Source of the DNA: Thoreauomyces humboldtii
Taxonomy: Eukaryota > Chytridiomycota > Chytridiomycetes > Spizellomycetales > Powellomycetaceae
DNA: 20,023 nt
Direction of reading: 5' to 3'
NCBI GenBank assembly: GCA_027596035.1
Contig: JADGJA010000393.1
Span: forward strand, 1-20,023
Below, one piece after another: positions 7,655 to 14,361 of the stretch (the first letter of the stretch is position 1; the number at the start of each line of letters is the position of its first letter). The position numbers were made by a program, and so were the translations under genes. The notes beneath the pieces were generated by a model that was not told the origin of the DNA, did no database searches, and saw only the letters and a program-made list of their open reading frames with translations.

Positions 7655-10600
7655 ATGACCCTCCCACCACCACCACCACAGCAACAGCGACAGCAACCAG
7701 TCCCGCACGAGGAACTGCGGAGCAAGCGCATCAGGGTCTTTCGGAACGGTGACTCGTACGATGCCGGGAAGAAGCTAGTCATCAATCCAAGGGTGTACAG
7801 GAACTTTGAGCAGGTAAACGCACGGCGAGGAGTCTACATCCCGTAGCCCATCCAATTCACCACCGAGTATCAACCTCCTCTTCAACTCCCACCCTCGTTT
7901 CCCCAGTTCCTGGCCAGGCTGTCCAGAGACATCAACCTCGTCAACGGAGCAGCACGACGCGTCTACTCCCTTGACGGGCAACCCATCCACTCCCTCGACG
8001 ACCTCAAGGACGGCTCCGTCTACATCGCGTCCGGAGGCGAGAACCTCAAGCGCATCCCGTACCTCGTCGCAGGTGACGCAAAGGGAAGCATCGCGAACCT
8101 CGATGCCACCGCTCCATCTCCCACCAACAACAGCAACAACAACAACAACGGCAGCAACAGGGCTCCGAGGCTGCCGCACGTTCGGGCTTCGTTCGATCGG
8201 AGGAGACAGAGCGCTTGGGGTGCAGGAGGTCCGACCCCGAGGTTCGGTACCAGCAGGGTCCTGGACGACAAGGACGGGAACAACGGGAACGGGAACAGGG
8301 CCGGTGGTGATGGAGAAAGGACTCTGTTCGGACCTACGGTGAGCATGGGACAGGGGGGAGGGGTCTACCCTGATTCTGGCACACTGACACCTGTCGAACT
8401 CAACGAACTCTCTCGCCGTTGCAGTCGAAAGCGTTCAAGATTACAGTTTTCCTGAACGGAGAAGCCACGTCCCCGGGAACGAAGATGATCCTGAACTATC
8501 GCAACTGCAGGACATACGAACAGGCAAGTTATCATAGTTGACGACAACGTTCGACGTCCTTTCATCCTGACGATCGCTGACGTTCTCCTTTACCGGTCAT
8601 GTGTTCCTTTAGCTACTGAGAAACCTCACGGAACTCCTTCGGATCAGCGTTCGCAAGCTCTACGACGCGGAGACGGGAGGAAGGATCAGCAACCTTCGTC
8701 AAGTCAGAGACAACCAGAACATGGTGGCCTCGGCTTCGGACGCCTTCAAACACGTTCCCTACCTGATCGAGACGTCGTCGAGAGCTCCGGTCGTCAAGAC
8801 CGAGGAAGAGGTGGGTTAAAAAAAAACCTAAAAGAAACACTTACTCCTTGTTGAATTCCTGCGAAGGTTCTTTGTCTAACATGGATGGGAATTTTCGACG
8901 ACTAGGTTCCACGTGTGGCAACCTTCTTCCCGAACGGCGATGTACTCCACATTGGACAGAACGTCACGATCACCAAAAAGACGTTCCCGACGCTTCAAAG
9001 GGTGAGTTGACAGTGTTCTTGTCGTCCCCGCCATGCCGCGAACATCAACTTCAACACCATCTTTCTATTCTTCAATCAATCCCCTTACAGCTTCTCGACC
9101 ACCTAAACACCAAGATCCACCTCGTGACCGGCATGATCCACAAGATCTACTCCCTCTCCGGCCGTCGGATCCTAGCCGTCGAAGACCTCGAACAGATGGG
9201 CGGATACGTGGTGGTGTCCAACAACGACCCGTTCATCAAGGTCTCGTACAACCTCAACGCCCTGGCACCCGCCGAAGCCCACGCCAGGGGTCTCGACGGG
9301 ACGACCCAGCAACACAAGCACATGAAGGGGATCAGGAGACGCAGGAGGAGACATAGGACGAAAGGCGGCGAGACGACGGACGGAGAGAGTAACCTCGACG
9401 GTGGAGGCAACGAGACGGACGCGAGCGTGGCCACCACGAGGCATCATGACGAGGAGGACGGTGCGGACGGGACCAAGATGAGGAGGAGGAGAAAGTTGAT
9501 CAAACCTAGTCCCGTCGAACCCAAGGAGAAGAAGACGACGTCGGCACAGGGTCCGTCCCATCACGTAGGTGTATCCGCATCTGCTGTCACAAAGCAACCG
9601 ATCCAGCAACCCCAACGTCAGACCCTCCCTCCCTCGGTCGAAAACGAACTCGAACACGACGACATCCAACCCCAGTACGACGACGCTCACCGTCGAATCA
9701 CGACCAAGGCCGTGCCCCACCCCCAACCTCAACCTCAACCTCGACCCATCGTCGACTCGGACCTCAAGTCCAAACCCACCACCAGACCGAGCAAGGAAGC
9801 CATCGAAGCCGCGCACACCTCTCCCACCCCCCACATCACCGCACACGACACCATCACGTCCACCATCCCGATGGCCGGAAAACCGACCCCCCGACCCACA
9901 GACGAACCGATCGACACGGGACACACGTACCGCAAGGTGATCGTCACGAACGAGGAGGAGGACGCCGCCGCTTCCGGCGACGCGAGGTTCGTCAAGGGTG
10001 GGAAGAAGACGACCGTCGTCACCGGCCCCTCCGAGTCGAGGGACGAGGACGAGGTCGCCAGGGAACGCGACGGTCAGTTCACCAAAGGTGGTAGGAAGGA
10101 GGATCGTGACCATGACAAGGATAAGGATAAGGATAAGGAGAGGGAAGGGAAAGAAGGCGGCGGTGGTGGGTTCTTCACCAAAGTCAAGAAGACCATCCAC
10201 GACGAAGAAGAATCCAACGATTCGGAAGCTCGTGGGTTCTTCACAAAGGGAAAGAAACCTACCACCACCACCGGCCGTGGTGAACCCGACACGGAAACGG
10301 ACACGAACCGCACCACCACCACCACTACCACCACCACTCGACGCACCGTCGCGTCCCCACCACCACCACCACCGTCAACAGACGGCGACGACCACGAAGT
10401 CCGCGGCTTCTTCACAAAGGGTGGAACCAAGAGATCAGGACAGAAGGAGCCAACATCCCGGTCCCAACTACAGGAAGAAGGTCACGACGACGACGATGAC
10501 GAAGGAGGAGGGTACTACACCATGACGACGACCACGAAGACCAACAAGCAACGCAAACCCGTCGACTCCACTCACACCACCACCACCAACGACGATGAAG

Positions 10601-10950
10601 ACGACCACGAACCCTCCTCGGGACCCTTGGGAGGAAAGGAAGGCGTCGGATTCTTCTCCCGCGGTCGAAAGAAGGGCGGCGTCAACCGACCCGACAGCGA
10701 AGATCAGTCCCAACCCCTTCACCAAACCCCACAACAACAGGGACAACACGACAAGAATGCTCCTTCCCTGTCGGACGCCAACGACATGTACGGCGAGACG
10801 GGACAGATCCGGGTCATGCAGAGCAAGCAGGCTCAGATGGAGGAGGAGAAGGGAGGCGATGGAAAGACCGAAACGACCACCACAAACACCACCACGACGG
10901 GAGAGAAGCGGAGTATCTTGCCTGGGTTGCCGAGAAAGAAGGCTGCTTGA
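7655..10950 (+). CDS. Triple doublecortin-domain protein with long charged repeat tail
   Basis: Six exons: 7655-7813, 7907-8338, 8425-8523, 8613-8810, 8906-9001 and 9091-10950. Introns are 86-95 nt, all phase 0; the third is GC-AG. The protein is 947 aa. An in-frame TGA directly precedes the ATG. Three DCX domains are visible: 24-105 (KRIRVFRNGD start, VYSLDGQPI, LKRIPY end), 201-280 (FKITVFLNG, KHVPY end) and 299-382 (RVATFFPNG, IYSLSGRRI, IKVSY end). DCX domains have a ubiquitin-like fold and bind microtubules between protofilaments, so a microtubule-stabilising or axonemal role is likely. Domains 1 and 2 are joined by an Asn/Gly-rich linker (106-197). The tail (387-947) begins with Arg clusters (410-415, 459-462), then is rich in Thr, Lys, Asp, Glu and Pro and carries spaced FFTKGG-like motifs. 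I know no DCX protein with this tail. No kinase domain is present, unlike DCLK proteins. Confidence 0.92.
8524..8612 (+). other. GC-AG intron in the DCX gene
   Basis: The third intron begins GCAAGT after exon end GAACAG and ends TTTAG. No GT donor near this site keeps the frame and the domain. The CAG|GCAAGT context matches the strong flanking consensus usual for GC-AG introns. Confidence 0.85.
9982..10677 (+). repeat. Region encoding repeated (F/R)FxKGGKK-type motifs
   Basis: In the DCX protein tail a short aromatic-basic motif recurs: RFVKGGKK (627-634), QFTKGGRK (657-664), FFTKVKK (689-695), FFTKGKK (711-717), FFTKGGTK (768-775) and FFSRGRKK (849-856), with a degenerate YYTM at 803-806. 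Copies are 22-57 residues apart, mostly separated by acidic or Thr/Pro-rich linkers. The protein motif is conserved while the linkers and codons differ, so this is not simple DNA slippage. Confidence 0.85.
10114..10140 (+). repeat. Hexanucleotide repeat encoding (Asp-Lys)n
   Basis: Tandem GATAAG-type units encode alternating Asp-Lys within the DCX tail, between the second and third FFTKGG-like motifs. It is a coding microsatellite likely to vary in length. Confidence 0.8.
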
Positions 10951-11270: not shown

Positions 11271-14061
11271 TCAACTCAACCGAGCGTTCGAGAAGTCGCT
11301 CGACAGGCTCGGTGGCATGTCGAGCGACTTGACCAGGTCGGCGAGGATGAGGGAGAGTTTCCCTCCCTGGAGCCAGAACCGACTGGTGCCTCTCAGGGCT
11401 CTCAGATGGATCTGGATGCGTTCCTGCGAGGCCAGCAGGGCGGCCTCGTCGTCTCGAAAGGTTTGTGCGAACACGACGTGGACGAGGGATGACTGTAGGA
11501 AGGGGCAAAAAAGGGGGTGGGGATTTGATCGTGAGTTTTTTTTTTCTTCCTGCGCCAACCCTTTCCCCGTGTTTTTCAACTCACTTGGAAGATGCAGAAG
11601 CAGACGAAAGGGGTGATCCAGAACAGGTTCGGGTTGGACTCCATCATGTTGTCCAACAACGTGGCGACGGCGATGGCGCTCTCCTGACTGGCCACGAAGT
11701 GTCTCGAGTGGAGCGAACCGGGACCTTGGTTCAGGGCGGCCATCATCTTGGGTCGATGGAGGAGGACGAGCGTGGTGTTGTAGAACAGGTGGAGGTAGGC
11801 GACCTCCCAGGAAGGAGGAGAGAGTCCACCTTCGGGAGTCCGTCGGGTCCAGTTGGCGGCGAAGGTGGTCCCCGGGTTCCGTATCCACTCGGGCAGTCCC
11901 TCGTACCACTCTCTGAGCGACGTCTCCAGGACGGCCATCTGGGTCTCGGACTGGGCGACGCTGATGACCTGGAGTCCAGGTTGGGACGACAGGTGACTGC
12001 TCTTGAGGGTGCTGGTGAACTCCATGACGCGTCCAAAGATCTTTGCGAGGTGGAGGTAATGATCGAAGGGACTGTCGCTGACGAGATGGACGTCGGGTGC
12101 AGGCGCCGGAGTGGTTCCCGTCGTGGACAGGACGGTGAGTTGCCAGGAGTTGTGACTTCCCGACGCTTGGCCGACGGGTTCCTCGTCGTCGATCGACATC
12201 TTTAGCCACTCCCACACGGGTATAGGAGAGAAGACGCGGACGTCCTTCTCGTTGCAGAGGGTGGGTCGATCGGCGGCTGCTCCCGCATATCTGTCCGTCG
12301 TGAAGCAGGCCCACCAGACCCGTCGTCGGCGCTCCTTTTCGAACCATGACATGGGACCAAAGACAGATTGAACTTCGGGGTAATCTGGATCTAGGTCCAT
12401 CTTCAAAGACTGCGCCATCCGGATCGCCATGCCAGAGTACATCCATGATGCTGAAGCTAGATATGGTTGGCGTGAGATCAGTATCCGATAATTGCACGCC
12501 TTGGAAAGATTCATGACTCGTCGCATCACAAACCTCTTCCACTTCCGGCAGCATAGGTCATGAGCATGATGAGAGACGCGACGGTATCCACGGAAGGTGT
12601 ATCGACCGCCTGACTGACCAAAACACGGGCTCTCGCATAAAACGTTTCTCCCTATGATCCCAACACACATCAACAGAAGATCAGCCACCTTTCCAACACA
12701 ACGAGATCCCAGCGGGATGAGGGTTTAGACATCTTAGGCCGTACCGCTTGCCACATCATATCCGGATTCTTCGAAACGCTCGGATGACCCGAGAACCTCG
12801 CGGACGTCGCATACATGGCGTTCAGCAACAACGGACTTTGCACGGGTCTCGTGCTCCTGAACTCCTCCTCGTGAATGATGCACCCCAGTATCGGGTTCAT
12901 GTAGATGAAGAACAGGTCCAACAGTTCCTCCTCCGCCTCCAGGGGTATCCGATCCGCGGCGTCCTCGGAAGGCCAGGACGACCTCTGGGAAGCGGCGGAT
13001 CGAGAGAGGGGAACCTCACCGAACGGACCTTGGAGCTGTCGAGGAGTTCGATGAGGTCGTCCCTTCACGATGCCGAGTCCGGGACCCGCGCCGTCCGGGA
13101 GGTACGATGAGCTGGCCAGGAGGTTGGTGTAGACGTCCGACGTGTCGTCGTTGGCCGGTGCGGCTTCCGCTGAGAAGGATCCTCCGCCTCCCATCAGTTC
13201 GTCGAAGTCTCGATCAATGATGTTCCAGATGTCCTCGTCCTCGGACGGCGCCGCCGGGGACGTCGTGGACAAGGCGGGTGAGAGTCGTTGTGGAGGGGTG
13301 GGTAACGCTGGCATGACGTCGGGATTGGCACCGTATGCGAAACCGGGGAGGAAGGGACTGGAACTCGACGTGGACGCCTGCGTCAGCACTTGAGCTGGAC
13401 TCGTGTACGGATTCGCTGGAGGGATCAGGACTCCGGACGGAGGGCCGAGAGACTGCTGCACCCTCTGTCCGAACTGCAGCTGCTGGTGATATCGAGCCGT
13501 CGACGTGGTACGCGCGTTGTCGGTGGTCGTGGTGGTAGGTCCAAACGGTTGGAGGGACCCGGGCGTGAAGCTCGGAACCCCTCGCCCGGCCGTACCTACA
13601 CCAGAAGCATCACCGGGCGAAGAAGACCCTGACCCCGAAGTCGGTCTCCTCCCCACGGCACCGCTCCCGTTCCCACTCCCGTTCCCACTCCCGTTCCCAC
13701 TCCCGCTTCCACTCCCGCTTCCCGGCGTCGTCGTCCCACCCAAAGGTTTTATCAAGGCCTCCATCTGCTTCAACCTCCATTCCAGTTCCTTGAGGTGTCC
13801 CTGCTTGGGACCCCTCTTCTTGGCCTCCCTCTGATACGAGCACTGAAGCTGACCGTTGAGGCACTGGGTGCAGGCGGGTTGCAGTCCATCGCACTTGACC
13901 TTCCGCTTGTTGCAAATGTCGCACGCTTTCGTCGTTCTCCGTCGCTTGTGGTGAGGGTGGTGGTTGGCGTCGTCTATCGGTGGCGGAGAGTCCGAGTCGA
14001 AGGATGGGTGGTATTGCTGTTGGTGGTGGTGGTCCGAGTAGACGTCGCGTGGGTCGTTCAT
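11271..14061 (-). CDS. Zn2Cys6 transcription factor with fungal-specific TF domain
   Basis: Four exons on the minus strand: 14061-12745, 12651-12534, 12456-11585 and 11492-11271. Introns are 93, 77 and 92 nt, GT-AG with matching phase; the protein is 842 aa. The C6 zinc cluster has Cys at 47, 50, 57, 64, 67 and 74 (C-x2-C-x6-C-x6-C-x2-C-x6-C), binding two zinc ions and DNA. It is followed by the KKRGPKQG linker (81-88) and a short coiled coil (90-105) that would dimerise. Residues 108-375 are low-complexity. The fungal-specific TF domain starts about 375 (LDLFFIYMNPILGCIIHEEEF), continues over the exon 1/2 join (FYARARVLV, 443-451), WMYSGMAIRMAQ (483-494) and RRRRVWWACF..DRY (521-535), and runs on toward 770. 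This is a nuclear sequence-specific regulator; targets are unknown. The ATG at 14061 is the first in frame, no ATG lying in the open stretch before it. Confidence 0.93.
13661..13722 (-). repeat. 12-bp minisatellite encoding Gly-Ser-Gly-Asn
   Basis: Tandem 12-bp units (GTTCCCACTCCC on the + strand) encode repeated Gly-Ser-Gly-Asn/Ser, residues about 114-134 of the C6 factor, between the dimerisation helix and the rest of the protein. It acts as a flexible linker and is likely to differ in length between strains. Confidence 0.88.
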
Positions 14062-14361
14062 GAAGATGGATTTATGAGCGGTAGTGAGTTGTTTATCTGT
14101 TTGCTGTCTTGCTGGTGGCGGTTCGTGTGATGGAATGAGCGAAATGGTCGGAGGGATGTGAACTTGCAGACGCAAACAGGACCTCGCATTCGACGTGCTG
14201 CCACTATGACAAACACTCGATGAGAACTGTTGTGAAGAGTAGTAGAAAGCGCGGTATGGGAAAGTGGGTGCTGAGTCTGGTGGCTGTACGCAACGTGCAA
14301 GGTACGATATCAGAGCGCGAAACCCGATTCACGATGGGGGGTTAATGCGCAAAGGGCAAAT

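Follow-up and report, generated by a model that had tools for sequence, protein, structure and literature searches.

What can the position of an intron tell about how a protein with one DCX domain came to have several? The question is raised by a predicted gene on the plus strand of a 20,023-nucleotide stretch, here called the window, which covers positions 1 to 20,023 of contig JADGJA010000393.1 (assembly GCA_027596035.1) of the spizellomycetalean chytrid Thoreauomyces humboldtii. The gene (7655..10950) has six predicted exons. Its protein of 947 amino acids contains three DCX domains, and in the coding sequence of each a phase-0 intron falls at the equivalent residue. Probably it descends from a two-exon DCX module that was duplicated twice, together with its introns, at a time when the Chytridiomycota and the Blastocladiomycota had not yet diverged. 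If one intron position has persisted through such old duplications, it would serve as independent evidence on how one DCX domain became several, standing beside domain trees that are weak with their 84 columns.

Equal cuts in three DCX domains

Spliced from the window sequence, exons 7655-7813, 7907-8338, 8425-8523, 8613-8810, 8906-9001 and 9091-10950 form a single open frame of 947 codons plus a stop, and all five junctions are in phase 0. In this protein Pfam PF03607 matches three DCX stretches (152 bits, with a cut-off of 22). Domain 1 is divided into a first half at 7724..7813 (residues 24-53) and a second half at 7907..8068 (residues 54-107), separated by intron 1 (7814..7906, GT-AG, 93 bases), which cuts FEQ|FLARL after residue 53, the bar marking the junction. 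Exon 3 (8425..8523) encodes the first half of domain 2, and intron 3 (8524..8612, 89 bases) cuts YEQ|LLRNL after residue 230, ahead of the second half (8613..8768, residues 231-282). Exon 5 (8906..9001) encodes the first half of domain 3, and intron 5 (9002..9090, GT-AG, 89 bases) cuts LQR|LLDHL after residue 328, ahead of the second half (9091..9252, residues 329-382). The two remaining introns, intron 2 (8339..8424, 86 bases) and intron 4 (8811..8905, 95 bases), both GT-AG, lie at 197|198 and 296|297, i.e. 3 and 2 residues ahead of domains 2 and 3; therefore exons 3 and 5 are nearly equal, with 33 and 32 codons.

The equality of the cuts was measured on a DCX profile of 86 positions. For this profile, 69 domains from 23 fungal-type proteins were trimmed along the columns of the window protein and then realigned; besides the window protein itself, 14 models that were odd or incomplete and two rows without certain fungal origin were excluded. 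Each of the three cuts maps to position 30|31 of the profile, whose position 1 corresponds to Lys24, Phe201 and Arg299. An earlier note on this DNA had counted 30 residues from these same three residues to each intron and had placed further phase-0 introns at or just ahead of the starts of domains 2 and 3; both observations hold, as does its claim of three DCX domains cut at one residue. In all three domains, the same ungapped distance separates the cut from the NG of the upstream xNG[DE] turn. Under a uniform model, the chance that three introns coincide among 255 codon-phase sites is ∼1.5e-5. A structure predicted for P0003, the Spizellomyces ortholog that stands here in place of the window protein itself, contains three DCX folds that match human and Toxoplasma DCX and are mostly above 90 in the predicted local distance difference test (pLDDT). 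Helix 1 of these folds spans residues 36-46, 191-202 and 287-297, and the cuts, placed after residues 38, 193 and 289, would each follow the third residue of the helix. Pairwise identity among the three domains is no more than 25-32% (26/81, 22/83 and 20/80).

The junctions are predicted from the sequence and from orthologs, and the deposited T. humboldtii protein, P0001, differs at one of them. It reads PT|LLRNL and lacks exactly the 33 residues of exon 3, leaving domain 2 half-built. Residues of exon 3 are present in 36 of the 37 other fungal-type rows, P0035 being the exception, so the exon model of the earlier note is better than the deposited one. That model needs one correction: the donor of intron 3 is GC (GCAAGT) and not GT, the intron being GC-AG. 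GC donors are missed by many gene finders, and this one is probably the cause of the omission in P0001.

The discrepancy with P0001, together with junctions read from sequence and orthologs, is what could be said for a gene-model artefact, i.e. junctions picked in such a way that the domains look alike. This is very improbable, given the presence of exon 3 in all but one of the other rows and the way in which most of these rows run flush across the cuts. At residue 53, 30/37 rows are flush, three have inserts and four lack one side; at residue 230, 36/37 are flush; at residue 328, 34/37 are flush, four of them (P0026, P0033, P0038 and P0039) with run-on tails that the alignment program put at this site. 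Allomyces rows have one additional residue shortly upstream of the cut in domain 3.

Distribution of the gene and traces of its introns

Two database searches, in which the 7,995 and 7,996 candidates with most words in common were scored and whose reach is limited to these candidates, recovered 38 further fungal-type proteins (P0002-P0039). The 36 that are named or coded come from zoosporic fungi. The DCX profile finds three matches in 30 of the 38 models (at least one of them partial in P0026, P0030, P0032, P0035 and P0039), four matches in three models where one domain is split by an insert, two matches in four models and one match in a single model; the five with fewer than three matches end before domain 3 or start within it. 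Three copies are thus usual in the zoosporic fungi recovered, and not the excess over the usual one or two that had been supposed. Carriers include the chytrids Batrachochytrium, Chytriomyces and Synchytrium as well as Allomyces and Blastocladiella. Allomyces belongs to the Blastocladiomycota, and the same three-domain layout is found there as in the Chytridiomycota. Within the 20.67-Mb genome of T. humboldtii, at least 3 matches to PF03607 are found, all within this gene; a scan of that genome with PF24478 gave no match, though such a scan does not show absence.

A further protein with three DCX domains, P0040 (EukProt, 436 amino acids), falls outside the fungal classes and is not joined to them with firm support in the domain tree. 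A search from it matched only itself and P0117, which has two DCX hits. It is possibly an independent triple-DCX protein.

Faulty gene models in other species carry traces of introns at the same places. A break was counted in a domain for inserts of at least 8 residues, deletions of at least 5, and hits starting after profile position 8 or ending before 78; because profile hits can extend up to a few positions too far, a split hit was placed where its first piece ends or where the insert visibly starts. Among the 38 proteins this rule yields 17 in-domain breaks, eight of them at 30|31, in seven proteins. Tested against 3 of 85 positions, this concentration has a p of 4e-8. At the cut in domain 1, P0009 (Rhizophlyctis), P0023 (Borealophlyctis) and P0038 (Zopfochytrium) carry inserts with V as first and Q as last residue, as expected of a retained GT...CAG intron in phase 0, which they likely are; from P0006 (Geranomyces), the seven residues directly after the cut are missing. 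At the cut in domain 2, the model P0035 (Polychytrium) begins with the second half, the first being missing; it was counted because the leucine at profile position 31 is its first residue belonging to the domain. At the cut in domain 3, P0026 (Phlyctochytrium arcticum), P0038 and P0039 continue with VG, VV and VS, respectively, and then stop. Named carriers of breaks at 30|31 belong to Spizellomycetales, Rhizophlyctidales, Chytridiales and Polychytriales. Similar traces occur at the linker introns: P0033 and P0034 end abruptly ahead of domain 3, in VS and VR, respectively, at the site of intron 4, P0022 (Allomyces) has an insert of eight residues with V first ahead of domain 2, at the site of intron 2, and a break in P0037 near the start of domain 3 is ambiguous. 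Collectively, the breaks at 30|31 suggest that other chytrids have introns at this position of their DCX domains. With tblastn among pattern matches in viral contigs (90) and genome contigs (166), no relative was confirmed.

Several chytrids (P0010, P0015, P0025 and P0029) have an insert of 10-43 residues at position 67 of domain 3. The inserts of P0025 and P0029 resemble each other, which makes a real loop more likely here than an intron.

Age of the domains and origin of the shared intron

The earlier note saw in the gene a two-exon DCX module duplicated twice within this lineage. In favor of such a recent triplication are the identical cut positions and the near-equal exons 3 and 5. Against it stand the three-domain layout common to two phyla and a tree of 83 domains and 84 columns, where domains group by position across species: fungal domain 2 forms one group (support 100/99), fungal domain 3 another (99/95), and fungal domain 1 falls together with the animal N-terminal DCX domain (96/96), without being a single clade by itself in the best tree. 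Forcing the three window domains together costs 213 log units and is rejected by the approximately unbiased (AU) test (p 7.5e-54), as is the same constraint on the domains of five genera around Spizellomyces (140 log units, p 5.7e-39) and on those of the Chytridiomycota (72 log units, p 1.5e-4). Tandem domain duplication specific to the lineage was therefore discarded, and under the model used a triplication there is practically untenable. The module copied with its intron remains the simplest reading and a plausible one; only its recent date falls. Since both phyla have the layout, the domains group by position and the constraints are rejected, the triplication would predate the split between Chytridiomycota and Blastocladiomycota.

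How much older it is depends on domain 1, which is probably of the N-terminal DCX class. Profile comparison agrees with the tree: fungal domain 1 scores 171 with animal N-terminal DCX, 143 with the animal second domain, 140 with domain 2 and 113 with domain 3, the lowest score of all being that between domains 2 and 3 (72). Domain 1 of the window is identical to the first domain of a sponge at 37/83 positions and to that of human DCX at 31/82. A separation of domain 1 before fungi and animals diverged is thus favored, though not proven. As a matter of dating only, and compatibly with the module copied before the phyla split, a single triplication on the stem of the zoosporic fungi would make the three fungal domains sisters. 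This is doubtful: the AU test does not reject such a clade, but the best tree and the profile scores place domain 1 with animals, and domain 1 of the window resembles the sponge domain more than its own domains 2 and 3 (at 26/81 and 22/83). Neither domain 1 as a clade by itself (p 0.13) nor the placement of domain 2 or domain 3 with the animal second domain (p 0.19 and 0.47) is rejected. Three separate ancient DCX classes, the outcome that would have undone the duplication proposed in the earlier note, are approached for domain 1 and its animal relatives, with a single all-fungal origin not rejected for the whole set. A 2006 study judged the duplication of animal DCX domains ancient because Dictyostelium already has a tandem, and its trees include fungal DCX sequence (PMC1550402).

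Cut position, domain count and grouping by position across fungi are computed from the sequences. For the intron, two origins can be weighed. In the first, a founding two-exon DCX module with a phase-0 intron at 30|31 would have been copied twice, introns included, ahead of the split of the two phyla, giving rise to the three-DCX gene. This is favored because three old domains share one intron position, and it also fits the phase-0 introns just before domains 2 and 3, which leave exons of such similar length. In the second, the domains separated before the introns came, and each acquired its intron independently at the same favored splice site in helix 1. The low mutual identity of the domains and their separate clades speak for it, as does the lack of breaks at 30|31 in non-fungal models. 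The favored target of intron insertion is MAG|R. The bases flanking the in-domain cuts, CAG|T, CAG|C and AGG|C, misfit this target at the base after the cut, and three hits on one of ∼255 sites are hard to obtain by chance. For both reasons inheritance is clearly preferred over repeated insertion, which is unlikely, and the intron was presumably present in the founding module.

Several observations weigh against inheritance from an old module. Nine of the 17 in-domain breaks are not at 30|31; four are the inserts at position 67 of domain 3 and five are scattered (two in P0030 and the starts of P0019, P0032 and P0039, three of these in models whose start is an internal Met). Introns elsewhere are read from faulty protein models, and the trace in domain 2 outside the window is a single model, P0035. 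The three in-domain introns are unrelated in sequence: shuffles match the score of the pairs in 114, 18 and 278 of 500 cases, which is within chance for two pairs and, for introns 1 and 5 (18/500), too weak for use. The all-fungal clade costs 9.8 units of log-likelihood and is not rejected (p 0.24). Raw identities are mixed, domain 1 of the window being closer to the second domain of Danio DCDC2B (31/81) than to the first (28/82). No break at 30|31 is seen in a set of 77 DCX models that are non-fungal or unnamed and include many bird DCDC2B; one row is odd elsewhere. Human DCX is not known to have an intron at this place. Exon numbers, but no positions, are given in Table 2 of PMC1550402. In human DCDC2, the acceptor variants c.294-2A>G and c.349-2A>G, given in PMC10252754, mark introns at codons 98 and 117; set against the domain bounds of Manis DCDC2 (17-98 and 139-219), these two introns lie at the end of domain 1 and in the linker, elsewhere than 30|31. 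An intron at 30|31 older than the split of fungi and animals thus has no direct support.

It may nevertheless be suggested, tentatively and with less confidence than the copying before the two fungal phyla split, that the phase-0 intron at 30|31 predates the separation of fungi and animals, was already part of the one DCX gene that founded the family and was duplicated with it as the N-terminal and later classes arose. If this were true, zoosporic fungi would preserve a founding two-exon DCX module that animals have lost.

Relation to known DCX proteins and possible function

The window protein shares the domain and, as modeled for P0003, the fold with animal DCDC2, DCDC2B, DCDC2C and DCX, and in the best tree its domain 1 groups with their N-terminal domain. 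Tandem DCX proteins of human and mouse have one or two repeats (PMC1550402), whereas the window protein has three and a different long tail. RP1 and RP1L1 likewise contain DCX domains, but two repeats (table in PMC1550402), and were outside the domain tree; RP1 is described as a microtubule stabiliser of the photoreceptor axoneme (PMC12203965). In Toxoplasma TgDCX, a single DCX domain was matched. Apicortin is a DCX protein found also in zoosporic fungi (PMC12189498); it combines one DCX with a partial p25alpha domain, whereas the window protein has three DCX domains and no Pfam match to p25alpha in its 947 residues. Nor does it have a Pfam match to a protein kinase domain, as would be expected of a DCLK; the ortholog P0005 is named a DCLK kinase by its source, yet is listed with DCX families only. 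No description of this three-DCX protein of fungi was found among the open-licence papers listed, by title and start of abstract, and the main text of an atlas of the fungal flagellum (PMC13358043) nowhere mentions doublecortin, DCX, DCDC2 or RP1.

A p25alpha (TPPP-like) gene is present elsewhere in the same genome (C145:18714-20032, L004-L006). It was matched in pieces and may be a fungal-type TPPP or an apicortin.

By charge count, domain 2 is basic and domain 3 nearly neutral. The encoded protein would bind along microtubules, and domain 3 may bind something other than microtubules. The long low-complexity tail after domain 3 (9253..10950) is probably disordered; that of the ortholog P0003 is predicted mostly below pLDDT 50. 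It contains six FxTKG/FFTKGKK-like repeats, also found in Geranomyces and Powellomyces (5/30 tails, that of the window counted), and LPGLP near its C terminus, an LPxLP motif being present in 12 of the 30 tails examined. The groups of the 36 named or coded fungal homologs have flagellated zoospores, and for this reason a role in the zoospore flagellum or its associated microtubules is probable. A conserved three-DCX protein of fungi with swimming spores is a candidate microtubule protein tied to the fungal flagellum. Domain counts drawn from the databases concerned would mislead, since domain 2 is incorrect in the Thoreauomyces entry P0001 and the models of several orthologs are probably disrupted at these very introns.

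The neighborhood of the gene is fungal. Downstream on the minus strand, two adjacent reading frames (11576-14328) contain a Zn2Cys6 cluster and a Fungal_trans domain, and likely form one transcription factor gene. Upstream, also on the minus strand, lies an exon of a GDSL lipase/acylhydrolase (673-1431).
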